NCBI RefSeq assembly: GCF_004341685.1
Contig: NZ_SMAA01000003.1
Location: forward strand, 62,001-126,000
DNA length: 64,000 bases
Direction of reading: 5' to 3'
From: Pectinatus cerevisiiphilus
GTDB lineage: Bacteria > Bacillota > Negativicutes > Selenomonadales > Selenomonadaceae
The stretch's first letter is position 1; every line of letters starts with the position of its first letter. The notes under the pieces are model-generated. The model was given only the letters and a program-made list of their open reading frames with translations. It did not search any database and was not told the origin of the DNA. The position numbers and the translations under genes were made by a program. This document shows, one piece after another, positions 4,183-23,055 of this stretch.

Positions 4183-4401
4183 CGCTTTTAAAGAATAAGA
4201 GCGATGCAGATATAATTCTTTAAGGGAGTAATGTTAATAGTAGGGAAAGGAGCGCTGGTTTTATGAGATAAAATGGCAGTGAATTTCTAATAAATGGAGT
4301 GAGAAAAGTAGTATTTGGTAAGTTCTAGATTGGTAATAGATCGTAATAAGAGAAAGAGCGTAAATTTGCTTTTATAATATTTTGCGCGAGGAGAGATAAA
4401 A

Positions 4402-6141
4402 GTGTATATACAAAATTTTGATCCTTTAAATAATATGGTTGGATCAGCAGCATTAGCATTTCTACCAATTGTTTATTTTTTTGTGGCGTTGATAATATTT
4501 AAAATGAAAGGTCATTGGGCAGCAATAACTACTACTGTTTTAGCCATTGTATTAGCTGCTTTGGTTTACGACATGCCGGTTATTCTTTCCGTTATGTCAG
4601 CTATACATGGAATTTTATATGGGATTTTCCCTATAGGCTGGATCGTAATAGGTGCAGTTTTCTTATATAACATCAGTGTAAAGACAGGTCAATTTGAAAT
4701 TATAAAAAAATCAATTGTATCTATTACAAACGACAGACGGTTGCAACTGCTGCTTATTGCATTTTCCTTCGGTGCTTTTTTGGAAGGCTCGGCAGGGTTT
4801 GGTACACCTGTTGCAATAACATCAGCAATGCTCATCGGTATGGGATTCAAAGCGAAAAAAGCTGCTTGCCTCAGTTTGCTGGCAAACACCGCACCAGTAG
4901 CATTTGGTGGTTTGGGGATTCCAGTTTTGGTTGCTGCTCAGGTAACAGGTTTTTCAGGAGATTATATTGCTAAACTGCTAGCAATGATTTGTCCGATAAT
5001 TGGTTTTATTGTTCCTTTCTATTTAATACTGGTAATGGCTGGCTTGAAAGGCTTAAAAGAAGTTTGGCCGGCAGTGCTTGTTACATCAGTATTCTTTTCA
5101 ATACCAATGGGACTGACTTCCTATTTTGTTGGGCCTATTCTTCCAGATATAATCGCATCACTGGCTTCGATGATTGCTTTAGTACTCTTTTTGAAAATAT
5201 GGCAGCCGAAGCATATTTATCGGTTTGAAAATGAAGCAGAAGCATCAAGTGAACATATTGTTCTTAGTAAGAAAACGATTATAAAAGCTTGGAGTCCTTT
5301 TATTGTTTTGATATTATTCATCGCTGACTGGGGAATGAAAAGTGTTACCAGTTTGTTAGATTCAGTAAATATCCTTATACCGATACCATTTTTAAATAAT
5401 GCAATAATGAACAGTACAACAAATACCCTTGTAGAAGCAGTATTTAATTTCAACTGGCTTTCTGCCGCAGGTACAGGTATCGTTTTGGCCGCATTCATGT
5501 CTTGCATAATATTGCATGTTTCCGTTGGTAAATCAATTAGTATTTTTGCTGATACATTAAATGAATTAAAAATAGCTTTGCTTACTATAAGCGGTGTTTT
5601 GGCTTATGCTTATGTGGCAAATAACAGTGGTATGACAACTACAATGGGACTGTTAGTTTCGAAAACAGGAAATATGTTCCCGCTCTTTGCACCAATAGTT
5701 GGTTGGTTAGGCGTGTTTGTTACTGGTTCAGATACTTCCGCAAATGCACTCTTTGGTAAATTACAGACAACAGCATTTTCGGCAGTAGGCATATTACCGA
5801 TAATGGGTATTGGCGCCAATTTGGCAGGTGGGGCTGTAGGTAAGATGATATCTCCACAGTCTATAGCTATTGCAGCAGGCACGACTGGATTGACAGGTAG
5901 AGAAGGCGAAATTTATAAATTCAGTATGAAACATTCAATAATTTTATTAGCGATGATTTGCTGTATCATATACTTCCTCGATGGTATTTTCCTTTCTGTC
6001 CTTGTGTCTGAAGCAGGTAGTGGAAGTGCACAGGCAGCAAGCAGTACGGCATCTAGTGGTGGATTAATAATATTATTGGTTTCGTTCGTCATCGTTTTCT
6101 TAGCGAGAAAATTGTTACCATCATCTAAGACCACGGCCTGA
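4402..6141 (+). CDS. lctP: L-lactate permease (LctP family)
   Basis: A 579-residue, highly hydrophobic protein with about 12-14 membrane spans, typical in length for lactate permeases. It should import lactate together with protons. GTG start with GAGGAGAG about 7 nt upstream. Recognisable family stretches include [29 protein letters not shown] and [16 protein letters not shown], which form the conserved core of the LctP family. It is the first gene of the cluster and is followed by genes for lactate oxidation, which supports lactate (rather than glycolate) as main substrate. The C-terminal tail after residue 535 is a Ser/Ala-rich linker plus a last membrane helix. Confidence 0.93.
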
Positions 6142-8180: not shown

Positions 8181-9577
8181 AACCCTATAAGCAAATAACC
8201 GAAGAGGACCTTAAAAACCTCGCTAAAATAATAGATAGGGAAAGAATTCTCTGGAAAAAAGAAATAAACGAAGAATACAGCCACGATGAACTGAGTGCCG
8301 GACAACATTATCCAGACATCGTAGTGAGAGTCACCAGTGCAGAAGAAGTTTCAAAAATTCTCGCCTATGCAAATAAGAACAATATCCCTGTTACCCCAAG
8401 AGGAGCTGGCACTGGACTTGTCGGTGCAGCAGTTGCTGTCGAACAGGGCATCATGATAGACACAACCTTGATGAACCATTTTCTGGAACTTGATGAACAA
8501 AACCTCACCTTGACCGTAGAACCGGGAGTACTACTCATGGAACTTGCCGAATATGTAGAAAAAAGAGGTTACTTCTATCCACCTGATCCTGGTGAAAAAT
8601 CCGCAACAATCGGCGGCAACATCAGTACCAATGCAGGCGGCATGAGAGCCGTAAAATTTGGTGTTACCCGTGACTACATCCGCGGCCTTGAAATAGTTCT
8701 TGCCGATGGGACCATAATGACCCTCGGCGGTAAAACAGTTAAAAACAGCTCTGGTTATGCCTTAAAAGACCTTATCGTGGGCTCAGAAGGAACACTTGCT
8801 ATTATCACCAAGGCAATCCTGCGGCTTTTGCCGTTACCAAAGAAAAATGTCAGCCTGCTCGTACCGTTCCCGACACTGGAACAAGCAATAAGGGCAGTGC
8901 CGCCGATCATAAAATCAAAGGCAATCCCTACGGCAATAGAATTCATGGAAAAAGAAGTAATCATGGACGCCGAAAAATACCTCGGCAGAAAATTCCCGGA
9001 CAATCAGGCAGATGCGTACCTGCTGCTTAAATTTGATGGCAATACAATGGAAGAAATCGCTTCCTACTATGATTCGGTAGCACAGATTTGTCTTGACCAA
9101 GGGGCAATAGACCTGCTTATCGCGGACACTGATGAAAGAGCTGAATCCATTTGGAAGGCAAGAGGGGCATTCCTCGAAGCAATAAAAAGCTCCACTACCG
9201 CCATGGATGAAGTCGACGTAGTAGTACCGCGCAGCAGCGTTAATGACCTTGTTGAATACATCCATAACCTGCAAAAACAAACAGGCACAAGAATAAAATG
9301 TTTCGGTCATGCGGGCGACGGCAACCTGCATGCCTATATACTCAAAGATGACATGACAGACGAACAATGGAAAAAGGCATTAGCAGTGACAATGGGGAAA
9401 ATGTACCAGAAGGCGCGTACCCTTAAAGGCAGTGTTTCTGGTGAACACGGCATAGGCTATGCCAAAAAAGAATATTTGAAACAATCTATGCCAGCAGAAG
9501 CATTACAGATTATGCAAGGCATAAAAAAGGCATTTGATCCGCATAATATTTTAAATCCTTGTAAAGTCTGCCAATAA
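8177..9577 (+). CDS. lctD: FAD-dependent lactate dehydrogenase subunit (LctD/GlcD family)
   Basis: A 466-residue FAD-linked oxidase that should oxidise lactate to pyruvate and hand electrons to the Etf pair. The N-terminal FAD_binding_4 (PCMH) domain has [11 protein letters not shown] and [17 protein letters not shown]. The C-terminal FAD-oxidase domain has the histidine-rich [27 protein letters not shown] and ends NPCKVCQ. The ATG overlaps the lctC stop (ATGA). The partner genes upstream argue for the electron-bifurcating lactate dehydrogenase over a glycolate oxidase. D- or L-lactate specificity cannot be read from sequence. Confidence 0.9.
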
Positions 9578-9645
9578 AAAAAGAAGTTTGGATAGTACAA
9601 TATATATTATATGTGTGTGGGAAATTTATTGAGGAGTGAATCAGT

Positions 9646-10245
9646 ATGAGAAGGGTAAGCCATGAGTGGCAGAAGTATTTACAAAAAGGGTTTATAGATA
9701 AAAAATATTGGGATGGTTTTAAAGAAAATGCACAGGCAGCTTCAGTAGAATTAAAAGAAGTAAAAAGCTATGAAGACGCTATTCCCGTAATAGAAGGCAT
9801 AATCGAAGACGTGAAAGCTTCTAGTATAGCAGCAGTAGGCGGCGATGAATCAGAAAAGCTCAACAATATCTATAAGAATCTGGAACAAAATTGTAAAGTG
9901 TATACAGATAAATTTGATATTGCCAAAAATGCACCTACTGTTGACATTGGTATTTCCGTTGCTGAATTTGGCGTTAGCGAAACGGGAAGCGTATGTGTTG
10001 ATAATTATTCTTATGAAGCAAGAGTGACGACTATGCTGCCACCGATTAATATTGTGTTTATGAACAAAAATAATGTAGTGAATACTATGACAGATGCTTT
10101 TGCAATACTGGAAAATGTTTTTGATAAGGGTTACACGGGGTTTGTTACAGGCCCAAGCCGTACCTCTGATATAGAAAGAGTTTTAACCTTAGGAGTACAT
10201 GGACCGAGCAGATTAATACTGTTTGCAGTGGATGGGATGGAGTGA
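9646..10245 (+). CDS. lutC: LUD-domain lactate utilisation protein (LutC-like)
   Basis: A 199-residue LUD (YkgG/LutC) domain protein. Strong ribosome site GAGGAGTGA upstream of ATG 9646. Typical features are GVSVAEFG-like GISVAEFGVSETGSV, a TTMLPP motif and the terminal GVHGPSRLILF that marks the family. In Bacillus subtilis LutABC together oxidise L-lactate to pyruvate. Here it precedes a fused LutB-LutA gene by 5 bp, so the full set is present in one unit. A 68-bp gap separates it from lctD, so it may be transcribed from the same promoter. Confidence 0.88.
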   Translation: MRRVSHEWQKYLQKGFIDKKYWDGFKENAQAASVELKEVKSYEDAIPVIEGIIEDVKASSIAAVGGDESEKLNNIYKNLEQNCKVYTDKFDIAKNAPTVDIGISVAEFGVSETGSVCVDNYSYEARVTTMLPPINIVFMNKNNVVNTMTDAFAILENVFDKGYTGFVTGPSRTSDIERVLTLGVHGPSRLILFAVDGME

Positions 10246-12757: not shown

Positions 12758-13072
12758 ATGGTCTGCCAATGCAATAACAAAAACAATGGCAATATAAAAT
12801 ACAAAAAAAGAGATGCTGAAGAAAAGAAAAATTTGATTACGCGGCTGAGCCGAATTGAAGGACAAGTCAGAGGCCTTAGAGCCATGGTGGATGATGATCG
12901 ATACTGCGTTGATATATTGATACAGGTTTCAGCAGTTCAATCGGCTTTGAATAGTTTTAATAAAGAGCTTTTAGCAAGACATATAAAGACGTGCGTGGTG
13001 GAAGATATAAAAAAAGGAAATGATGAAGCCATCAATGAGCTTTGCGAACTTTTGAAAAAACAAATGAAGTAG
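12758..13072 (+). CDS. csoR: CsoR-family copper-sensing repressor
   Basis: A 104-residue, all-helical DUF156 protein. ATG 12758 sits 7 nt after a perfect AGGAGG. The copper-binding Cys-His-Cys set of CsoR is visible: Cys in RYCVDIL, then His and Cys in RHIKTC (HxxxC). LSRIEGQVRGLRAMV is the family's helix-1 signature. Cu(I) binding releases it from DNA and derepresses copA. A Cys/Asn-rich N-terminal tail (VCQCNNKNNG) precedes the core. It lies directly before copA and behind a matching operator, so autoregulation is likely. Confidence 0.93.
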   Translation: MVCQCNNKNNGNIKYKKRDAEEKKNLITRLSRIEGQVRGLRAMVDDDRYCVDILIQVSAVQSALNSFNKELLARHIKTCVVEDIKKGNDEAINELCELLKKQMK

Positions 13073-13081
13073 GTGGAAAAA

Positions 13082-15649
13082 TTGAAAGAAAAGTTTGCAG
13101 TAACTGGTATGACATGTTCTGCGTGTTCATCACATGTCGAAAAAAGTGTGGCAAAAGTGGCAGGGGTATCTGCTGTGAGTGTCAATTTATTGACCAACAG
13201 TATGCAAGTTGATTTTGATGATAAAAGTACAGATTCAGCTAAAATAATAGCCGCTGTTGAAGATGCCGGATATGGGGCTTTTGTGTATGGCAAAGAAAAA
13301 AAGCAACAAATTCCGTCAGCGAAGACGGCTATTGCCAATATGAAAAAACGTCTTATTATCTCAGTAGTTTTTTTACTGCCCTTGTTGTACTTATCTATGG
13401 GACATATGATGTACGAAGCTTTTTCGTGGAAGATGCCAGTTTTTATGATGGCTTATTTTTGGGGGAATGCTAGTGCGCATGCTTTTGCGTTCACACAGCT
13501 TCTCCTTTTAGTACCGATCATACTGGCCAATCAAAATTATTTTAAAAATGGTTTCAAAACACTTTTTAAAGGCAACCCTAATATGGATAGCTTGATTGCA
13601 ATAGGCGCCGGGGCAGCAATTGTATATGGTATATTTGCCATTTATCGTATAGGTTATGGTTTGGGGTATGGCAATATAGCGCTCGTCAACCAATACCGCT
13701 TAAATCTTTATTTTGAGTCTGCTGGTATGATTCTCACATTGATAACCGTAGGCAAATTTCTTGAAGCAAGATCAAAAGGCAAAACCAGTGAAGCCATTAC
13801 TAAGTTAATGCAGCTAGCACCAAAAACTGTAACAGTCATAAGAGATGGTAAAGAAAAAGTTATTGATGCTGCGCAAATGCTTGTTGGTGATGTTTTTATC
13901 ATTAAACCGGGAGAAGCGGCTGCCGTTGATGGTATAGTCCTTGAAGGAAAATCTTTTTTTGATGAGTCGGCAATAACGGGTGAAAGCGTGCCGGCTGCAA
14001 AAGAAAAAGGGGATAAACTGGTTTCGGCATCAATTAATAAAACAGGATTAATAAAGGCTAAGGCAGTGAAAGTCGGTGAAGATACCACCCTTGCCCAAAT
14101 CATAAAATTGGTTGAAGAAGCTTCCTCAAGCAAGGCCCCTATTGCTAAACTGGCTGATAAGATAGCAGGGGTTTTTGTACCGGTGGTAATAGGGATAGCG
14201 GTGCTTACTGCTATTTTCTGGTTAGGTATGGGATATGAAGCCGAGTTTGCGATATCAACCGCAATAGCCGTTTTGGTCATTTCTTGCCCTTGTGCATTAG
14301 GATTGGCAACACCAGTGGCAATTATGACGGGAACAGGAAGAGGCGCGCAATACGGCATCTTGATAAAATCAGGAGAAGCATTGCAGACCGCGCATAAGAT
14401 CGATACCATAGTCTTAGATAAGACGGGAACAATAACACAGGGCAAGCCTAAGGTGACTGATATAATATGTGCTGACGGCATCACGGAAGGCAGCTTGTTG
14501 GCGATTGCGGGTTCCATCGAAAAAGGCAGCGAACATCCTTTGGCAGAAGCAGTAGTAAATAAATGTTCGCAGGAAAATATTGCTCTAACACAAGTGACTG
14601 ATTCTATGGCACATTTTGGCCGTGGAACGGAAGGTTTTCTGGATGGGCATAAGTATTATGCAGGTAATGAAAAACTGTTGCAGGAATGCCATATTGCTTT
14701 TAACGGTAAATTGTATGATGATGCTTGTAATCTGGCAAAACAAGGAAAGACGCCATTAATATTTGCTGATGAGAAAAAGATTTTAGGAATAATAGCTGTA
14801 GCTGATACGATAAAAGAAACTAGCAAGCAGGCAGTGCAAGAATTGAAAGAGTATGGAATTAATGTAGTTATGCTGACAGGTGATAGTGAAGCTGCGGCAC
14901 AGGCTATTGGTCGGCAAGCTGGAATAGAAAATGTGATAGCAGGTGTGCTGCCAGCGCAAAAAGAAGAACAGGTGAGCAGCTTAAAACAAAAAGGACATGT
15001 GGTAGCTATGGTAGGCGACGGTATAAATGATGCTCCTGCCTTGGCAGCTGCCGATGTGGGGATTGCGATTGGTGCAGGTACTGATGTGGCAATTGACAGC
15101 GCAGATATTGTCCTGATGAAAAGCGACTTACTGGATGCAGCAAAAGCTATCAAGCTCAGTAAGGCAGTAATACTTAATATAAAAGAAAATTTATTTTGGG
15201 CATTTTTCTATAACATTATCGGGATTCCATTGGCTGCAGGTGCCTTATACTTAACATGGGGCATAAAATTGAATCCAATGTTCGCGGCAGCGGCCATGAG
15301 CTTGAGTAGTGTCTGTGTTGTTACTAATGCCTTGCGTTTGAAAAGACTGCGGCTGGGAGATTCTAATCCTGATAGAAAAGATGAACCTATGCCAATTTCT
15401 AATATAGATAGTAAAGAAGAAAAAGGAGAAAACAAAATGAAGACAACAACTATTATGATTGAAGGAATGAGTTGCGGCCATTGTACCAGCAGAGTAGAAA
15501 AGGCATTGCGCCAGGTAAATGGGGTAGATTCTGTCAAAGTAAGCTTAGATGATAAGAATGCTGTCGTTTCCGCTGGAGAAAATGTAACGGCAAATGCTTT
15601 AAAAGATGCTGTTGTAAACGCGGGATATGATGTAGTAGGACTCAAATAA
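13082..15649 (+). CDS. copA: Copper-exporting P1B-type ATPase with HMA domains at both ends
   Basis: A Cu(I) efflux pump of about 855 residues. N-terminal HMA domain with GMTCSAC, then eight membrane segments with the CPC motif (about residue 405 counted from GTG 13073) that selects Cu(I), the actuator motif TGES, the phosphorylation site DKTGT (about 449), SEHPL and GDGINDAPA. TTG 13082 is preferred since AGGTGG ends 5 nt before it; GTG 13073 overlaps that site and the csoR stop. Unusually, after the last membrane helices and a linker there is a second HMA domain with GMSCGHC, resembling the chaperone CopZ. That is separate in many Firmicutes but fused here. Confidence 0.92.
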   Translation: MKEKFAVTGMTCSACSSHVEKSVAKVAGVSAVSVNLLTNSMQVDFDDKSTDSAKIIAAVEDAGYGAFVYGKEKKQQIPSAKTAIANMKKRLIISVVFLLPLLYLSMGHMMYEAFSWKMPVFMMAYFWGNASAHAFAFTQLLLLVPIILANQNYFKNGFKTLFKGNPNMDSLIAIGAGAAIVYGIFAIYRIGYGLGYGNIALVNQYRLNLYFESAGMILTLITVGKFLEARSKGKTSEAITKLMQLAPKTVTVIRDGKEKVIDAAQMLVGDVFIIKPGEAAAVDGIVLEGKSFFDESAITGESVPAAKEKGDKLVSASINKTGLIKAKAVKVGEDTTLAQIIKLVEEASSSKAPIAKLADKIAGVFVPVVIGIAVLTAIFWLGMGYEAEFAISTAIAVLVISCPCALGLATPVAIMTGTGRGAQYGILIKSGEALQTAHKIDTIVLDKTGTITQGKPKVTDIICADGITEGSLLAIAGSIEKGSEHPLAEAVVNKCSQENIALTQVTDSMAHFGRGTEGFLDGHKYYAGNEKLLQECHIAFNGKLYDDACNLAKQGKTPLIFADEKKILGIIAVADTIKETSKQAVQELKEYGINVVMLTGDSEAAAQAIGRQAGIENVIAGVLPAQKEEQVSSLKQKGHVVAMVGDGINDAPALAAADVGIAIGAGTDVAIDSADIVLMKSDLLDAAKAIKLSKAVILNIKENLFWAFFYNIIGIPLAAGALYLTWGIKLNPMFAAAAMSLSSVCVVTNALRLKRLRLGDSNPDRKDEPMPISNIDSKEEKGENKMKTTTIMIEGMSCGHCTSRVEKALRQVNGVDSVKVSLDDKNAVVSAGENVTANALKDAVVNAGYDVVGLK
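15437..15649 (+). CDS. Possible CopZ copper chaperone from an internal start within copA
   Basis: The C-terminal HMA domain of CopA begins at an in-frame ATG preceded by AAGGAG at 15423-15428, 8 nt away, as good a ribosome site as most in the window. Initiation here would give a free 70-residue CopZ-like chaperone with the GMSCGHC metal site. The linker before it (EEKGENK) reads like translated intergenic DNA. Sequence alone cannot show that it is used. Confidence 0.4.
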   Translation: MKTTTIMIEGMSCGHCTSRVEKALRQVNGVDSVKVSLDDKNAVVSAGENVTANALKDAVVNAGYDVVGLK

Positions 15650-15697: not shown

Positions 15698-15757
15698 ACG
15701 CGAAGTGCCCGCCCAAAGTTAGATCAGTAAATCTAACTTTGGGCGGGCACTTCGTGT
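15698..15757. terminator. Very long perfect hairpin between copA and the DUF4867 gene
   Basis: Arms 15701-15724 and 15731-15754 are perfectly complementary over 24 bp and extend to 27 bp with one wobble; the loop is 6 nt. TGTTTTATC follows on the plus side. It separates convergent copA and the pentose operon and probably ends both. It is more GC-rich and much longer than the other terminators here. Confidence 0.75.
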
Positions 15758-15807: not shown

Positions 15808-16428
15808 CTAACATTGGGTGTTTTCACCGATGAGACCAATAAAACCACCGTCTTTATCAATATTACTTTCGGCATGGCCGATAAGCCATTTATTTTCTGC
15901 AAACAACAGTCTGTTTTCACCGTCTAAGGAGGAAGGTTTTTCTGGTAATGGCATATTTGTGCCTTTTGGCAGTACTACGCCGCAGCGAAATTCTTCACCA
16001 TTTTGGCGGCAAGGAGCATAATGGAGGGTTGTAGCATATAATTCCACTGCCGTTCCCTGTGGTACAAAAAACAGTTCAATGTTTTCCGTCTTATAAGTAT
16101 TGTTGCTATAATCGATATCTTGCTGGCGGCCGAGCATTAAAATGAGATCAGTTGCAGCTATATCAATTTCTGAACTGCGATGATATTCAACTGCGTTTAA
16201 TTTATTATTACGACCACTGCAAAAGCCAAATTCAATGTTAAGGCCGCCAAAAACTTCGTTTTGTATTTTTTTAAATAAAGGAAGCATTTCCAGCGCTTTA
16301 TCCGATGCTTCATATACTACACCGTCCTTGATGGCGTCTTTGCCAGCCATTGTTTTTATAAAAGTAGTAGTATCTATTTTTATTATTTTACCATAGTCGT
16401 TAAAAGAATTATCTAATACACTTTTCAT
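15808..16428 (-). CDS. DUF4867 family protein, cupin-like
   Basis: A 206-residue cytoplasmic protein with no signal peptide. I recognise it as the DUF4867 type found in Firmicutes sugar operons. The HRSSEIDIA stretch and the VPQGTAVELYATTLHYAPC segment look like strands of a small beta-barrel, cupin-like fold with His/Glu residues that might bind a metal; that is inference. It starts with ATG 9 bp after the lacI gene stop, with GAGGAAT as ribosome site, so it is co-transcribed with lacI, the porter and xylB. Its role is unknown; a sugar epimerase, mutarotase or sensor role would fit the location. Confidence 0.7.
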   Translation of the reverse strand: MKSVLDNSFNDYGKIIKIDTTTFIKTMAGKDAIKDGVVYEASDKALEMLPLFKKIQNEVFGGLNIEFGFCSGRNNKLNAVEYHRSSEIDIAATDLILMLGRQQDIDYSNNTYKTENIELFFVPQGTAVELYATTLHYAPCRQNGEEFRCGVVLPKGTNMPLPEKPSSLDGENRLLFAENKWLIGHAESNIDKDGGFIGLIGENTQC

Positions 16429-16437
16429 TATTATTCC

Positions 16438-17454
16438 TCACAAATTCTCCAAAATTTTTATTTCATTTTTCATAATATGTTTGCTTTTATCGGGGCTGAT
16501 TCCATTTACCAGATATTCAAAAACAAGCTGCATGGCACGCTGTCCCTGCCGATACGGATGTTGATAAATAACGGCTTTAATAATATGTTTCTTCATCATT
16601 TCTACTGTAGTCGGGACTGTATCAAAAGCCAAAATTGTCAGTTGGTCCTGTTTGTTAAGTGCGAGTACAGCACGACAGGCACCATATACACCTGCTGCTA
16701 CTATGAATAAGACGTTTATTTCCGGATGGTGCATTATCATTTCTTTGGTTTTGTCATATGAACAAATATCATCGTCGTCATTTTCTTGAATGTCTACGAT
16801 TTTAAAATCAGGATTTTTATTGATGTTATATTTGAATCCTTCTAAGCGCTGTCTGTGTCCTAAAACTTTTGATGATCCCATGATAATGCCAATATTGGCC
16901 TTTTCTTTGGTGATCATTTGTAACAATGCCCCAGCGGTTTCGCCACCGTTTACGTAATTTGTCCCTACATAACAGTGCCGGCGTGATTCATCTGCATCAT
17001 TGTTCAAGGTTACAACGAAAACCCCACTGTCAACAAATTCGTTTATTTTGTTTATTATCAAAGGATCATTTATGGGGTTTATTATTAAAGCATTTATTTT
17101 ACCCTTTAATTTAGCAAGAATTTGCAGCTGTGCTTCAGTGCTATAACCGCGAATAGAATGCAGTAAGATATTCAGGCCATAAATTTTGTATTTTTCGGCG
17201 GCTGTTTTAATACCACGAATGACATCATCAAAAAAAGGATTTCCCTTTGCGGGGATTAAGATACCTACAACTGGGTTGTGTTTGCGGGCAGATAATGCCT
17301 TGCCGGCAGGATTAGGTTGATACTCCAGTTTTTTTATCATGTTAAGCACCAGGTTACGCGTTTCTGTTTTTACGTTTCCCCGCTCATTGATGACTCTATC
17401 GACAGTACCTCGCGAAACTCCGCATAAATCTGCGATTTGTTTGATTGTAACCAT
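16438..17454 (-). CDS. LacI-family transcriptional regulator
   Basis: A 338-residue regulator. The N-terminal helix-turn-helix is textbook LacI: IKQIADLCGVSRGTVDRVIN, followed by the hinge NPAGKALSARK. The rest is a periplasmic-binding-like sugar domain of the ribose-binding type (VVGILIPAKGNPFF, NALIINPIND, GGETAGALL, HRQRLEGF). It lies in the minus-strand pentose operon, and two TGTGC-N4-GCACA palindromes sit at the divergent promoters, so it probably represses both arms until a sugar or sugar phosphate binds. The ligand is not evident. An extended -10 and a spaced inverted repeat in front of it suggest extra expression from its own promoter. Confidence 0.88.
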   Translation of the reverse strand: MVTIKQIADLCGVSRGTVDRVINERGNVKTETRNLVLNMIKKLEYQPNPAGKALSARKHNPVVGILIPAKGNPFFDDVIRGIKTAAEKYKIYGLNILLHSIRGYSTEAQLQILAKLKGKINALIINPINDPLIINKINEFVDSGVFVVTLNNDADESRRHCYVGTNYVNGGETAGALLQMITKEKANIGIIMGSSKVLGHRQRLEGFKYNINKNPDFKIVDIQENDDDDICSYDKTKEMIMHHPEINVLFIVAAGVYGACRAVLALNKQDQLTILAFDTVPTTVEMMKKHIIKAVIYQHPYRQGQRAMQLVFEYLVNGISPDKSKHIMKNEIKILENL

Positions 17455-17469
17455 TGAAAGGCCCCCTGC

Positions 17470-17523
17470 GATGCTATATTATTTTAACTAAATTACATTA
17501 ACATTATAGCATCACGGGAATTG
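17470..17523 (-). promoter_or_regulatory. Extended -10 promoter and spaced inverted repeat before lacI
   Basis: On the minus strand TGCTATAAT (TATAAT at 17518-17513) forms an extended -10 for the LacI gene. GATGCTATA (17470-17478) and TATAGCATC (17515-17523) are perfect inverted arms 36 bp apart, one covering the -10. This may be an autoregulatory site of a different type from the TGTGC operators. Confidence 0.4.
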
Positions 17524-17536
17524 AATTATCTATTGT

Positions 17537-18958
17537 TTAGCAGCCTATATCTTTTAATTTTTTACCTTCCATAAGATTCTGTTCAATTTTTTCTAAAGAA
17601 ACGCCTTTGGTTTCTGGAACATAACGTATCGTGAGATAAACAAACAATGCGTTTAATGCAGCATAGAGCCAAAAAGTCATGGTGGAACCGAGCGTGTCAA
17701 GTAATGTTAGGAATGTAGCGCCAATTAGTGTACAAGACAGCCAGTTAGTCATTGTAGAACAAGCAATACCGAAATCGCGGCTTTTCAAAGGCTGAATTTC
17801 TGAGCATAGTATCCAAACTACAGGACCAGCTCCAAAGCCAAAACCAATGATGGCGAGTAATGTCATACCAGCAGACAGATACGGGATAAAAGGAAGTGTG
17901 CTGCCACTTTCAAGAACAGCGAAACAGATGCCTAATATAAATAAAGATATGGCCATAATGATGAAGCATCTTTTCAGTGCAGGCTTGCGGCCGGATTTGT
18001 CGACAGTGCCAACGGCGATAAGTGTTGCAAGGACAAATACCAACCCATTTATTACGGTACCGATCATTTGGTCTTCGGTTGAGGAAAATCCGGCTATACT
18101 CAGGATTTTAGGAGAATAATACATGATTATGTTAAAACCTGTAAGCTGTTGCATAAATTGTAAGAGGACACCCAGAAATACAACGCGGCGCACATTTTTA
18201 TTAACTTTGAAAAGTTCCCAACCAGCTTGTTTCAGTTTTAAATTTTCTCTAATGTCGTTTAATTCTGATTTTGCTATTTCAGCATCCGTATGCATGGAAC
18301 TCAATACTTTAGCTGAAGATTGAAATTTTCCCTTGGAAGCCAACCAACGCGGACTTTCAGGTAAAGCTAAAACGCATAGAATCAATATTGCGGCAGGAAT
18401 GGCAATGATCATCAGCATTGAACGCCAATCACCCGTATAACTGAAATAAGTATCTGATAAAAAAGCAACTAAAATTCCCACTGTAACCATTAATTGGTAC
18501 CCTGAAATAATACTACCGCGGGCATCCTTATTTGACATCTCAGCGAGATACAAGGGGGCGGTGTATGAAGCAATACCGACGGAAAGGCCCAATATCAAAC
18601 GGGCGCTTATTAGAATCGTTACGTTACCGGCTGAACCTGAACTGATACAGCCAATAATAAATAGAGCGGCACCAATCATTAAGGATTTTTTTCGGCCAAC
18701 ACCAGATGACAGCTTTGAGGCAATGATAGCACCTACAGCTGCGCCTACCATCATGGAGCTTACTACCCATTCTTGAAGATGGCTGTCAAGCTGCCATTCT
18801 TTTGTAATAAAAGGTAAAGCACCAGAGATAACGCCTTGGTCTAAACCGAAGAGAAGACCAGCCATACCGGCAGTGACAAAGACAAAAATCCTAATGAATT
18901 TTACGCGCTGGGCGGAAACTGTTTGAAAGATGATTTCATTTTTTATATTTTCCATCAT
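17537..18958 (-). CDS. Sugar:proton symporter, MFS sugar porter family (GalP/AraE-like)
   Basis: A 473-residue, 12-helix major facilitator. Sugar-porter signatures are clear: FGLDQGVISGALPF in helix 1, GRKKSLMIGA between helices 2 and 3, PESPRW after helix 6, MQQLTGFNIIMYY in helix 7, DKSGRK between 8 and 9, and PETKG after helix 12. The sequence is strikingly close to enterobacterial GalP and AraE, including LLFGLDxGVIxGALPFI and SSMMxGAAVGA. It should import a pentose or hexose with a proton. Operon position with xylB and an isomerase favours a pentose or 6-deoxyhexose. The start is ATG 18958 (an adjacent in-frame ATG follows). Confidence 0.9.
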   Translation of the reverse strand: MMENIKNEIIFQTVSAQRVKFIRIFVFVTAGMAGLLFGLDQGVISGALPFITKEWQLDSHLQEWVVSSMMVGAAVGAIIASKLSSGVGRKKSLMIGAALFIIGCISSGSAGNVTILISARLILGLSVGIASYTAPLYLAEMSNKDARGSIISGYQLMVTVGILVAFLSDTYFSYTGDWRSMLMIIAIPAAILILCVLALPESPRWLASKGKFQSSAKVLSSMHTDAEIAKSELNDIRENLKLKQAGWELFKVNKNVRRVVFLGVLLQFMQQLTGFNIIMYYSPKILSIAGFSSTEDQMIGTVINGLVFVLATLIAVGTVDKSGRKPALKRCFIIMAISLFILGICFAVLESGSTLPFIPYLSAGMTLLAIIGFGFGAGPVVWILCSEIQPLKSRDFGIACSTMTNWLSCTLIGATFLTLLDTLGSTMTFWLYAALNALFVYLTIRYVPETKGVSLEKIEQNLMEGKKLKDIGC

Positions 18959-19023
18959 TTACTCTCCCTAAAATATTTGCTTAGTAAAGCATGTTGGTTA
19001 TAATTGTATTAGTCAAATGTTTT

Positions 19024-20535
19024 TTATAAATTGGCTAAATCGTGGTAACAGTCTTTTAGTTGTGTATATAATTTTTTATAAAGAGTATGGCCTTTTTTAT
19101 AATACATTTGTTCAGCTTGTATTGGTGTGCATACTGAACCAACCTTAATCAGTTCATCGCAAGCGGAAACTACGTCTTTGAAAATACCTGTACCGACACC
19201 AGCAAGAATGGCTACACCTAAAGCTGGACCTTCTTCAGCAGTGAGTGTCTTTACTTTACAAGCAAACATATCTGATAATATTTGGCGCCACAGCGGGCTT
19301 TTTCCACCACCACCGCAGGCCATCATTTCATTGACAGTGATTCCCATTTCTTTTAGGACATCATAACAGTCACTAAGCGAGTAGGCTACACCTTCCATAA
19401 TAGCGCGTATCATATTAGCCTTGGTATGGATTGCGGATAAACCGAAAAATACGCCACGGCATTCCGGATCCAGATGTGGTGTCCGTTCACCCATGAGATA
19501 TGGTAGATAAATAAGTTTATCGCTGCCACAGGGAACTTTGGCCGCCGCTTCATTCATCAGTACATAGGGATCTTTATCTTTTTCTTTAAAATCGGTGGCG
19601 ATGTTATCACGGCACCATTTCAGTGACAAGCCGGCAGCTAATGTTACGCCCATTACGTGCCAGCAGCCTGGGACGGCACAACAAAATGTATGTACACGGC
19701 CTTTGGGGTCAATCAGTGGTTTGTCCGTATGGGCAAATACTACACCGCTGGTGCCAATTGTAGTGAAGGCACGCCCTTCTTTTACAATACCTGTACCGAT
19801 AGCAGCTGCGGCATTATCACCAGCACCACCGACTACGGCTGTTTTGGTAGAAAGTCCTGATGCTTTGGCAAATTTTTCACTTATATAACCGGTTATGTCG
19901 GGGGATTCATATACTTTAGCTAGTAATTTTTTATCAATAGCGAGTTTTTCTAATATTTCATCTGACCAACAGCGTTTTGGTATATCTAAAAGCTGCATCC
20001 CGCTGGCATCAGATACTTCCGTTGCATATTCACCGGTCATGCAAAAGCGTATATAATCTTTAGGTAGTAGAATGTGGGCGCATTTTGCATAATTTTGGGG
20101 TTCGTGGTTTCGCACCCATAAAATTTTTGAAGCAGTAAATCCTGTCAGCGCAGGATTAGCAGTTATTTCTATTAAACGTTTCGCACCAATTTCCTTTGTG
20201 ATTTCTTTACATTCGTCTGCGGTGCGCTGGTCACACCAAATTATTGAGGGACGTATAACGGCATTGTTACTATCAAGCATTACTAAGCCATGCATTTGTC
20301 CAGATAAGCCAATACCCTTGATAGCATCAGGAGCAACTTTGGATTTTGCTAATACAGCCTGAATGGTATGCAGCGAGGCATTATACCAATCAATAGGGTT
20401 TTGTTCAGCCCAGCCATTTTGTGGTTGATATAGCGGGTAATTTTCTGAAGCAGTAGCTTCTACTTGCATATGCTCGTTGAAAAGCACTGTTTTAGTAGCT
20501 GACGTTCCTATATCTAACCCTAATAAATAATTCAT
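19024..20535 (-). CDS. xylB: Xylulokinase-like FGGY carbohydrate kinase
   Basis: A 503-residue FGGY kinase with the actin-like fold: YLLGLDIGTSATKTVLF (phosphate 1), GLSGQMHGLVMLD and WCDQRT, typical of xylulokinases, GGAGDNAAAAIGTG and a C-terminal ACGGGGKSPLW nucleotide motif. It should phosphorylate D-xylulose (or a related ketose) with ATP for the pentose phosphate pathway. First gene of the minus operon, with a consensus promoter and a LacI-type operator upstream. No xylose isomerase gene lies nearby; the divergent isomerase is of the L-fucose isomerase class, so the true substrate could be D-xylulose, D-ribulose or L-fuculose-like. Specificity is inferred only from resemblance. Confidence 0.85.
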   Translation of the reverse strand: MNYLLGLDIGTSATKTVLFNEHMQVEATASENYPLYQPQNGWAEQNPIDWYNASLHTIQAVLAKSKVAPDAIKGIGLSGQMHGLVMLDSNNAVIRPSIIWCDQRTADECKEITKEIGAKRLIEITANPALTGFTASKILWVRNHEPQNYAKCAHILLPKDYIRFCMTGEYATEVSDASGMQLLDIPKRCWSDEILEKLAIDKKLLAKVYESPDITGYISEKFAKASGLSTKTAVVGGAGDNAAAAIGTGIVKEGRAFTTIGTSGVVFAHTDKPLIDPKGRVHTFCCAVPGCWHVMGVTLAAGLSLKWCRDNIATDFKEKDKDPYVLMNEAAAKVPCGSDKLIYLPYLMGERTPHLDPECRGVFFGLSAIHTKANMIRAIMEGVAYSLSDCYDVLKEMGITVNEMMACGGGGKSPLWRQILSDMFACKVKTLTAEEGPALGVAILAGVGTGIFKDVVSACDELIKVGSVCTPIQAEQMYYKKGHTLYKKLYTQLKDCYHDLANL

Positions 20536-20638
20536 TAATGAAACCGCCCTTCTTCTCTCCTTTAATTTACGGGATAATCTGTTTAAGCTAGCGTATTTTT
20601 ATTAATCTTTTTATACTACAGTTATCCAAATCTCAATA

Positions 20639-20652
20639 TGTGCTTAAGCACA
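20639..20652. promoter_or_regulatory. LacI-type operator O1 (xylB arm)
   Basis: Perfect palindrome TGTGCTTAAGCACA. It sits about +6 to +19 relative to the predicted minus-strand start, a position that blocks transcription when bound. It shares TGTGC-N4-GCACA with O2. Confidence 0.82.
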
Positions 20653-20664
20653 ATTTATGCGTTA

Positions 20665-20693
20665 AATATATCATTTGCTTATTTATTTGTCAA
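20665..20693 (-). promoter_or_regulatory. Sigma-A promoter of the xylB operon
   Basis: On the minus strand TTGACA (20693-20688), a 17-bp spacer and TATATT (20670-20665). A near-consensus promoter directed at xylB, with O1 just downstream. Confidence 0.8.
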
Positions 20694-20857
20694 TAAGCAT
20701 TTTTGATATTTTTCAGATTTTTTAATAAGTTACATTTAATTGAGTTAAATAAAACAACAAATGAAAATATACTGAGCACTATCAATCATTATAAAATCAA
20801 TTATAATTTACAATGTAATGATTATGAAATTATTATAAATTTTTGCAAAAATCTGTA

Positions 20858-20887
20858 TTGACAAGACTCATATAATAATGCTATTCT
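20858..20887 (+). promoter_or_regulatory. Sigma-A promoter of the isomerase arm
   Basis: TTGACA (20858-20863), an 18-bp spacer and TATTCT (20882-20887), with operator O2 starting about 13 bp after the -10. Confidence 0.7.
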
Positions 20888-20900
20888 GTATCTAGAAAAA

Positions 20901-20916
20901 ATGTGCACAAGCACAT
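20901..20916. promoter_or_regulatory. LacI-type operator O2 (isomerase arm)
   Basis: ATGTGC-ACAA-GCACAT, six-base inverted arms with a 4-bp centre. It overlaps the first transcribed bases of the plus-strand isomerase unit, mirroring O1. Confidence 0.82.
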
Positions 20917-20951
20917 AAAAGCTGCAAGCATATATAAAGGAGAGTATAAAA

Positions 20952-22439
20952 ATGATGAATAATATTCCAGAAGTGAAATGTGGTATCATTTCAGTTAGTA
21001 GAGATTGCTTTATAATTTCCCTTTCAGAAAATCGGCGTAAAGCTATTGTTAAAGCTTATACACAAAAATATGGAACAATCTATGAAGCTAAAACTGTAGT
21101 GGAAAATGAAACTGATATGTTAAAAGCCGTTGAAGAAGTAAAAGCTGCGGAATGTAATGCATTGGTGGTTTTCTTGGGTAATTTTGGTCCGGAAACACCT
21201 GAAACAATGATAGCTAAAAATTTTGACGGGCCAGTCATGTATGTCGCTGCTGCCGAAGAAACCGGTAAAGATCTGATAAATGGCCGTGGTGATGCATATT
21301 GCGGAATGCTTAATTGCTCATATAATTTAGGCTTGAGAAAAATAAAAGCATTTATTCCCGAATATCCTGTTGGGACTGCGGAAAATGTAGCGGCTATGAT
21401 TGATGAATTCCAACCTGTAGCCCGTGCATTGATTGGTATAGCAAATTTAAAGATAATTACGTTTGGACCGCGTCCACAGGACTTTTTTGCTTGTAATGCA
21501 CCGATAAAACCGCTTTATGATCTCGGTGTCGAAATAGAAGAAAATTCTGAGCTGGATTTGCTTGTTGCATATAAAGAACATGCCGGTGACAAGCGTATTA
21601 AAGATATCGTTGAAGATATGAAAAAAGAAATGGGAAAAGCGAACCCATATCCTGATTTGCTCAATAGAATGGCGCAATATGAACTTACACTACAGGATTG
21701 GGCGGAAAAACATAAAGGCTCCCGTAAATATGTTGCATTTGCTAATAAATGCTGGCCTGCATTTCCTTCCCAATTCGGTTTTGAACCTTGTTATGTAAAT
21801 AGCCGTTTTGTCTCGAGAGGAATACCAGTTGCCTGTGAAGTAGATATTTATGGCGCACTTAGTGAGTATATAGGGATTTGTGTAAGTGGTGATGCGGTTA
21901 CTCTGCTTGATATCAATAATTCAGTACCAGCAGATCTATTTAAGGAAGATATCGCCCCTAAGTATAGTAAATATACGCTTAAAGATACTTTTATGGGCTT
22001 CCATTGTGGGAATACGCCAATGTGCAAATTGGATAAAGGTGCTATAAAATACCAGCTTATCCAGAATCGTTTATTAGAAAACGGTGGTACACCAGATATC
22101 ACACGCGGTACACTTGAAGGTGATATCAGTGCAGGCAAAATTACTTTTTATCGTTTGCAGAGTAATGCCGCTGGTAAAATTAGTGCTTATATTGCGCAAG
22201 GTGAAATTTTACCTGTTGCAACCAGGTCTTTTGGTGGTATAGGTATTTTCGCGATTCCTGAAATGGGACGTTTCTATCGGCACGTTCTGATAGAAAAACA
22301 GTATCCGCATCATGGTGCAGTTGCATTTGGCCATTATGGTAAATCATTATTTTCTGTGTTCAGATTTTTAGGAGTAGGTACGATTGATTTTAATCAACCT
22401 CAAAATATGTTATATCCTAGTGAAAATCCTTTTGCATAA
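20952..22439 (+). CDS. L-fucose/D-arabinose isomerase-like protein
   Basis: A 495-residue protein of the L-fucose/L-arabinose isomerase superfamily, based on overall layout: an N-terminal Rossmann-like part (ALVVFLGNFGPE, MYVAAAEE), a middle part with CWPAFPSQFGFEPC and a Cys/Glu-containing CEVDIYGALSEYI, and a C-terminal part with GFHCGNTPMC and HHGAVAFGHYG that resembles the metal-binding and substrate-binding regions. Such enzymes interconvert an aldose and a ketose with Mn2+. ATG 20952 has AAAGGAGAG nearby. It is the plus arm of the pentose regulon and, together with the kinase in the minus arm, could supply a ketose-phosphate. The substrate is not determined. Confidence 0.78.
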   Translation: MMNNIPEVKCGIISVSRDCFIISLSENRRKAIVKAYTQKYGTIYEAKTVVENETDMLKAVEEVKAAECNALVVFLGNFGPETPETMIAKNFDGPVMYVAAAEETGKDLINGRGDAYCGMLNCSYNLGLRKIKAFIPEYPVGTAENVAAMIDEFQPVARALIGIANLKIITFGPRPQDFFACNAPIKPLYDLGVEIEENSELDLLVAYKEHAGDKRIKDIVEDMKKEMGKANPYPDLLNRMAQYELTLQDWAEKHKGSRKYVAFANKCWPAFPSQFGFEPCYVNSRFVSRGIPVACEVDIYGALSEYIGICVSGDAVTLLDINNSVPADLFKEDIAPKYSKYTLKDTFMGFHCGNTPMCKLDKGAIKYQLIQNRLLENGGTPDITRGTLEGDISAGKITFYRLQSNAAGKISAYIAQGEILPVATRSFGGIGIFAIPEMGRFYRHVLIEKQYPHHGAVAFGHYGKSLFSVFRFLGVGTIDFNQPQNMLYPSENPFA

Positions 22440-22485
22440 TGAGCTTAAATAAAAAATTCATTTGAAAATATAGAAATAGGAGCAA

Positions 22486-23055
22486 ATGATGATTATTACA
22501 ATTGGACGGCAATATGGGGCTGGCGGTCGTGAAATAGCTGAAAAACTTGCTAAAAAATTACAGATTCCTTTATATGATAGAAAATTGGTCGCATATATTT
22601 CAGCTCATTTAGAAAAAGGTGTGGACTTAGAAAAGCTTGACCTCACCTATGAAAATTTGTATGGCAGTGTATCTCCTTATTCGACAATGTTGGGCGATTT
22701 GACGGTTAAAGATGATAATTATTTATTTTCCTTTCAAGCAAAAGCAATCAAGGCCTTAGCACAAAAAGAGAATGGTATATTTATTGGGCGTTGCTCAAAC
22801 TTTATTTTGAGGGATTTTACAGAAGCTTATCATTTTTATATAGTCGCAGATGATGCTTTTCGTACAGAAAGAGGAAAAATTATATACGACAAAACGTTGC
22901 AGGAGTTAAAGCGGGAAGACGGAAAAAGAGGAGCATATTATAATTATTATACAGGAGCCAGATGGGGAGATCCTAAGGATTATGATATAACTATTAATAC
23001 TGGCAGGACAGGTATTGATAGAGCGGTAAGCATTATAAATGATTATATAAAGTAA
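22486..23055 (+). CDS. Cytidylate-kinase-like P-loop protein
   Basis: A 189-residue protein of the cytidylate-kinase-like family (AAK_26 type). The N-terminus has GRQYGAGGREIAEKLAKKL, a modified P-loop in which GxxxxGGRE replaces the classical GKS/T. YDRKLVAYIS and GRCSNFIL are family landmarks, and the ending SIINDYIK is typical. It is not the essential Cmk; members are common in Firmicutes with unknown substrates. It is 46 bp after the isomerase gene, behind GGAGC, so probably in the same LacI-controlled unit. Whether it phosphorylates a nucleotide or a sugar-related substrate is open. Confidence 0.82.
   Translation: MMIITIGRQYGAGGREIAEKLAKKLQIPLYDRKLVAYISAHLEKGVDLEKLDLTYENLYGSVSPYSTMLGDLTVKDDNYLFSFQAKAIKALAQKENGIFIGRCSNFILRDFTEAYHFYIVADDAFRTERGKIIYDKTLQELKREDGKRGAYYNYYTGARWGDPKDYDITINTGRTGIDRAVSIINDYIK

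Follow-up and report, generated by a model that had tools for sequence, protein, structure and literature searches.

The window considered here, a stretch of 64,000 nucleotides from the genome of Pectinatus cerevisiiphilus (Selenomonadaceae; contig NZ_SMAA01000003.1), holds at positions 15808-23055 two divergent gene sets, four genes on the minus strand and two on the plus strand, which very probably form a dedicated D-xylose catabolic unit with XylA-II as its isomerase. All six open reading frames (ORFs) are intact, and the six proteins have Pfam matches above the cut-offs (257 bits for DUF4867, 386 for Sugar_tr, 89 for Fucose_iso_C and 136 for Cytidylate_kin2). A sequence-only reading of this region had named a FucI-like isomerase, a XylB-like kinase, a DUF4867 protein and a Cmk-like protein, names with which Pfam and NCBIfam agree, and its remark that the kinase is paired with a FucI-family isomerase and not with XylA also stands. 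It had gone on to suggest an undescribed route for D-arabinose, D-lyxose, L-xylose, D-altrose or L-fucose; here the evidence leads elsewhere, as the isomerase groups with XylA-II, a tested D-xylose isomerase, and PMC2873477 already describes this pairing for Clostridium acetobutylicum. Most likely, this non-clostridial lineage carries a xylose operon of the XylA-II kind with another local regulator than in Clostridium; the pairing is real and the route is not new.

The isomerase, of 495 residues, has Fucose_iso_C (PF02952) as its sole Pfam match and is 69% identical to the isomerase of a locus that we take to be CAC2610-CAC2612 of C. acetobutylicum ATCC 824, where the order is isomerase, DUF4867 and XylB, and where the neighbours are 54% identical to the DUF4867 protein and 54% identical to the XylB of the window. 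A second locus, presumably that of C. saccharobutylicum DSM 13864, holds an isomerase, DUF4867, a transketolase, a fructose-6-phosphate aldolase, a ROK protein and XylB. Since this is the order of the published xylose operon, it was matched to CLSA_RS15825-15800, where XylB, DUF4867 and a FucI-family isomerase likewise occur together and where deletion of xylB abolishes growth on xylose while growth on arabinose is kept (PMC6158908); unlike the window, that operon includes the transketolase, the aldolase and a ROK regulator. In C. acetobutylicum, CAC2610 is a PF02952 member that forms one unit with CAC2611 and lies beside xylB (CAC2612). With Mn, the purified XylA-II isomerises xylose at 1.90 umol per mg per min; disruption of its gene leads to loss of growth on xylose, and the gene complements an E. 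coli delta-xylA strain. Enzyme assays, gene knockouts and complementation in E. coli have established CAC2610 as a D-xylose isomerase and CAC2612 as a xylulokinase (Gu et al. 2010, PMC2873477).

The kinship between the isomerase of the window and CAC2610 was placed in a quick IQ-TREE tree of 110 rows, in which branch support is given as SH-aLRT only. The window isomerase groups with two close relatives (100), inside a Negativicutes clade of 19 rows (100), and clades of 63 rows (91) and 72 rows (99) contain both it and CAC2610. The isomerases of two further genomes of the family to which the window belongs, G027 and G035, are adjacent or identical to those of Propionispira raffinosivorans (L090) and Selenomonas ruminantium SIG239 (L121), a placement that points to the Selenomonadaceae as that family. 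Outside the 72-row clade are found isomerases encoded beside AraD and L-ribulokinase (TIGR01234, 777 and 789 bits in loci L045 and L051, with a cut-off of 583). A survey of gene partners in 80 named loci, by best BLAST hit at 33% at least, found 18 with a XylB-like kinase, 18 with an AraB-like kinase, two with both, 23 with an AraD-like gene and 13 with DUF4867; 38 of the 80 have none of these four genes in reach, partly owing to short contigs. The 37 named loci of the 63-row clade include 14 with XylB, 13 with DUF4867, none with AraB and four with AraD. Judged by sequence, the isomerase of the window falls with XylA-II and away from the isomerases linked to L-ribulokinase and AraD.

The outer-clade relatives beside L-ribulokinase and AraD (L045:5633-9482, Thermoanaerobacterium butyriciformans; L051:7950-11925, Pseudobacteroides cellulosolvens) may themselves represent L-arabinose isomerases of another kind than AraA; counting against this, L045 also encodes an AraA-like protein at 4240-5646 (PRK02929, 216 bits, cut-off 622). 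In another relative (G243, L163:5235-5576 and 8593-10188) an intact XylA-II gene lies about 3 kb from fragments of another copy.

The two kinds of partner are also separated by residues. Between 37 XylB/DUF4867-linked rows and 20 AraB/AraD-linked rows, groups that were defined by the analyst, 15 positions differ; the window has the majority state of the XylB-linked group at 14 of them, while the remaining one shows a state found in a minority of the same group, and the AraB/AraD-linked rows hold between 0 and 2 of the 15 XylB-linked states. The XylB-linked group includes L157 and L161, which have no XylB in reach, and L114, which also has AraD; L114 and L115 hold just 9 of the 15 states each. 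The other group includes L046, which also has a partial XylB-like kinase. Five AraB- or AraD-bearing rows were left out of both groups and hold 9 (L072), 5 (L083), 10 (L093), 10 (L101) and 2 (L110) XylB-linked states.

The classical xylose isomerase XylA-I (TIGR02630) has no match in the whole genome of the window, which comprises 2.63 Mb, has a stated completeness of 100% and is itself included in the set of 60 relatives, four of which match. The window-type isomerase (78-100% identity, full length) is found in 17 of the 60 genomes, its own included, where protein search finds a single copy; a type at 60-63% identity occurs in three more. Of the five genomes that make up the genus of the window, G000 (its own), G001 and G002 have the isomerase, and G003 and G004 lack it; a 16S rRNA gene was found in two of the five, G000 not among them, and 20,000 of the 66,679 bases of the second contig of one congener gave no match to plasmids. 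Of the named genomes, the five whose isomerase belongs to the inner clade (C. magnum, C. frigoris, Clostridium sp. cel8, P. raffinosivorans and Selenomonas sp. ND2010) all lack XylA-I, and the two whose isomerase is of the outer clades (Ruminiclostridium termitidis and T. butyriciformans) have it. Mutual exclusion of the two isomerases among the relatives was considered and dropped: they co-occur in none of the 17, yet XylA-I is present in just four of 60, and the result is not significant (chance of about 0.25 by hand calculation). A search of paper titles and abstracts gave no XylA-II-type isomerase in Selenomonas, Negativicutes or Megamonas, a result that does not establish novelty for this group.

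The kinase exceeds the cut-off of the XylB model (TIGR01312, 576 bits against 380), stays below those of the 11 other NCBIfam models listed for it, and matches the xylulose kinase chain 2itm at 8e-106. XylB recurs at 68-85% identity in 12 of the 16 relatives' loci (one of the 12 being cut by the locus end) and DUF4867 in 10, so that the association of these genes is not due to chance; the LacI regulator is present in eight. The transporter belongs to the sugar porters (TIGR00879, 410 bits, cut-off 238), its solved relatives being GlcP (4lds, 2.6e-71) and the D-xylose-proton symporter (4gby, 2.7e-49), and probably takes up xylose. Its place is taken by a ChvE/GguA-type monosaccharide ABC transporter in L028:9357-13389 and L033:10310-14283 (scanned, over the cut-off) and, by ORF likeness, by a ChvE/GguAB-type one in L090:3387-7419. 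In a genome of the same genus (G001, L029:10441-11861) the sugar-porter gene consists of two overlapping ORFs, and is therefore frameshifted in that genome or its assembly. Further downstream in the metabolism, a frame of 695 residues encodes a candidate transketolase, and phosphoketolase is absent from the genome.

The regulation of the cluster appears to differ from that of Clostridium, whose xylose genes are associated with the ROK regulator XylR (PMC2873477). The cluster of the window has no ROK regulator; it encodes instead a LacI-family protein, which reaches no NCBIfam equivalog cut-off. The gaps inside each gene set measure 9-82 bp and the divergent gap between xylB and the isomerase gene 416 bp, and the only exact sites of the palindrome TGTGCNNNNGCACA in the genome, two in number, both lie in this gap. 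Shuffles of the window contain a mean of 0.05 exact operators, and none of 100 has two; a palindrome script requiring a central CG found nothing in the window. The operator is conserved in some relatives, whose gaps have it in the same kind of place as in the window. The arrangement fits a dedicated LacI repressor in place of the ROK XylR of Clostridium. A similar case is Moth_2024 of Moorella thermoacetica, a LacI-family regulator inferred beside xylose genes where the ROK XylR is missing, although this likeness is by description only and no motif is given for it (PMC2873477).

The cluster as a whole resembles that of C. acetobutylicum in its isomerase, DUF4867 and XylB neighbourhood and in the absence of XylA-I, which is lacking there too (PMC2873477), and differs from it in having a LacI protein with palindromic operators, a divergent and not collinear order, the MFS transporter inside the cluster, an additional Cmk-like gene and a host from the Selenomonadaceae. 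As the isomerase groups with the experimentally established XylA-II, the route most likely runs from D-xylose to D-xylulose and D-xylulose 5-phosphate: the sugar-porter symporter would import D-xylose, XylA-II, with its FucI/AraA fold, would convert it to D-xylulose, and the kinase step would carry this on to D-xylulose 5-phosphate. The LacI protein would repress both divergent units from the TGTGCNNNNGCACA operators, one of which follows closely on each promoter, and D-xylose or D-xylulose would relieve this repression. The DUF4867 protein would act as an accessory metalloprotein of the module, perhaps as a sugar ring-opening enzyme.

Several points weigh against this assignment or the regulation proposed with it. 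The assignment of the compared locus to C. acetobutylicum leans on its gene order, and the experiments behind the case were made in other organisms. The 63-row clade may not consist exclusively of xylose isomerases, because four of its 37 named loci carry AraD; the inner-clade AraD rows L072, L093 and L101 hold 9-10 of the 15 XylB-linked states, so the residues partly mirror descent. The transporter stays below the equivalog cut-offs of both XylE and GlcP. The operator pattern was spotted by eye in the window and then tested; with one mismatch allowed the window keeps its two sites, a number also reached in 48 of 100 shuffles, and a reversed control pattern also matches in the genome, so that it is the placing of the operators, not their number, that is telling. 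Finally, of 15 homologous gaps (the window included, with near-copies in L032/L111 and L040/L121), eight have the operator with at most one mismatch and seven lack it. These seven coincide with a single clade of the tree (98), as if the operator had changed there.

The alternative that survives best, although very improbable, is an L-arabinose (or D-arabinose/L-fucose) isomerase, with enzymes encoded elsewhere, a ribulokinase or fuculokinase and an aldolase or epimerase, handling its products. One argument for it is the fold, which also counts against D-xylose: an AlphaFold2 model of the isomerase built from 67 rows (pLDDT 93) is nearest, by Foldseek and VIA-align, to L-arabinose isomerases (4r1q_D, Z 31.8, rmsd 3.1, 455 residues aligned, 12% identity), followed by D-arabinose/L-fucose isomerases (Z 28.7-27.8; 1fui_A, Z 28.4, 12% identity). 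With this fold, and with deeper relatives beside L-ribulokinase and AraD as well as the four AraD-bearing loci inside the 63-row clade, specificity rests on phylogeny and the kinase partner. These favour D-xylose, since the kinase is a XylB over its cut-off and the isomerase carries XylB-linked states and is close to XylA-II. The genome does encode two class II aldolase-type genes, one on contig C1 in a gene set read from its ORFs as rhaB-rhaA-rhaD, presumably a rhamnose cluster, and one on contig C30, which is AraD-like (TIGR00760, 387.8 bits against a cut-off of 389.1; over the cut-off of NF006047). Neither of them carries the operator, which a genome-wide search limited to exact sites located in the divergent gap alone. 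The FucI/L-fucose version was rejected on the same ground and for want of a FucI match: no solved relatives of the isomerase, FucI chains included, were found by sequence (E up to 0.01) or by profile (E up to 5).

The aldolase-type gene of contig C30 lies in a set (L179:125-9076) with an MtlR-like regulator, a permease, AraM-like and hydroxyacid dehydrogenases and an AraR-like GntR regulator, names that, except for AraD, were given by reading.

Isomerases of the FucI/AraA fold are often promiscuous, and the sequence would permit a rare-aldose route (D-lyxose, L-xylose or D-altrose). This is slightly less probable still than the L-arabinose-type alternative, as the closest relative to have been tested isomerises D-xylose physiologically, and xylose use is lost when it is knocked out (PMC2873477).

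The DUF4867 protein is the part of the cluster whose role is least evident. It matches the solved chain 9gyy at 8.4e-48 and PF16161 well above the cut-off of 28.7 bits, and has the motifs EYHRSSE at residues 81-87 and LHYAP at 135; matched by motif to Glu97, His99, Glu103 and His150 of the solved protein (PMC11968277), it appears to keep the metal ligands. The structure, 9GYY/9GYZ, has an Fe site and comes with no assigned function; an assay restricted to non-paramagnetic metals gave no sign that the mutarotation of sulfoquinovose or sulfofructose was enhanced (PMC11968277). SftX/SqvB share with the window the E-x-H-x3-E plus His motif and a PF02952 partner isomerase (PMC11968277), and differ in that their partner pathway is that of sulfoquinovose. 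DUF4867 marks many sulfoglycolytic clusters, and in its largest family cluster 434 of 557 members belong to aldose/ketose neighbourhoods that include PF02952 and FGGY genes (PMC11968277). A sulfoquinovose cluster, for which this distribution and SftI (NF048012) as sole NCBIfam match of the isomerase might speak, has next to no probability and was rejected: the isomerase scores 59 bits with the SftI model, whose cut-off is 700, and the C. acetobutylicum xylose isomerase locus scores much the same (66 bits), and the eight region proteins scanned include XylB and no sulfoquinovosidase, transaldolase or sulfolactaldehyde enzyme.

All 13 DUF4867 loci among the 80 also have XylB, none has AraB and one (L114) has AraD; no DUF4867 gene was seen next to any of the 18 isomerases linked to L-ribulokinase, which are of the L-arabinose type. 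DUF4867 belongs to the xylose module, as the sequence-only reading had thought possible. Because it is confined to XylB-linked loci, a tentative and rather doubtful proposal is that it could be a metal-dependent ring-opening (mutarotase-like) enzyme for xylo-configured sugars or D-threo ketoses, D-xylose/D-xylulose here and sulfoquinovose/sulfofructose in sulfoglycolysis. If true, such a role would explain why DUF4867 travels with the XylB-linked isomerases and not with those linked to L-ribulokinase.

The same cannot be said of the Cmk-like protein, which that reading had likewise considered as a possible part. Its gene, of the Cytidylate_kin2 family, begins 46 bp after the isomerase gene, with which it is probably co-transcribed, and follows the isomerase in just two of the 16 relatives' loci, those of the two nearest relatives of the window. 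Otherwise members of the family occur sporadically and often in several copies, with matches in 21 of the 60 relatives and up to eight in one genome (G010). On this adjacency and scatter the protein was rejected as a core part, and its gene is probably a lineage-specific passenger outside xylose use.

Table 1. Genes and putative regulatory sites of the xylose cluster (positions in the window).
Feature	Position	Strand	Basis
DUF4867 cupin-type metalloprotein, counterpart of CAC2611, SftX/SqvB family	15808..16428	-	PF16161; last gene of minus-strand unit
LacI-family regulator, probable local xylose repressor	16438..17454	-	PF00356 and Peripla_BP_4
Sugar porter MFS symporter (XylT/XylE/GlcP type), probable xylose uptake	17537..18958	-	Sugar_tr, TIGR00879
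XylB, D-xylulokinase	19024..20535	-	FGGY_N/FGGY_C, TIGR01312; first gene of minus-strand unit
LacI-type operator TGTGCTTAAGCACA, 12 bp downstream of xylB promoter-like site	20639..20652	-	Pattern match
Promoter-like site of xylB unit, TTGACA-17-TATATT, 11/12, TG before second hexamer	20665..20693	-	Consensus match only
Promoter-like site of isomerase gene, TTGACA-18-TATTCT, 10/12	20858..20887	+	Consensus match only
LacI-type operator TGTGCACAAGCACA, 14 bp downstream of isomerase promoter-like site	20902..20915	+	Pattern match
XylA-II, very probable FucI/AraA-fold D-xylose isomerase	20952..22439	+	PF02952, identity to CAC2610 locus, tree, AlphaFold2 model
Cytidylate_kin2-family protein (Cmk-like)	22486..23055	+	PF13189

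Beyond the DUF4867 gene, a stem-loop of 20 pairs (15704-15751) separates the cluster from a convergent P-type ATPase gene. This copper-type ATPase (858 residues, 13073-15649) ends, by reading of its ORF, in an extra domain with the motif MSCGHC, which looks like copZ fused in frame to copA; a CsoR-like gene (12758-13072) adjoins it.

For the DUF4867 family, the cluster offers a clean natural setting in which its function can be probed. For the bacteria that carry XylA-II, the consequence is that an annotation seeking only XylA would label them xylose-negative. A genomic prediction has held beer-spoiling Pectinatus to be unable to use xylose despite its transporters, and xylose use was measured in all four P. 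cerevisiiphilus strains tested (PMC11510336); the XylA-II cluster could resolve this contradiction between prediction and measurement.

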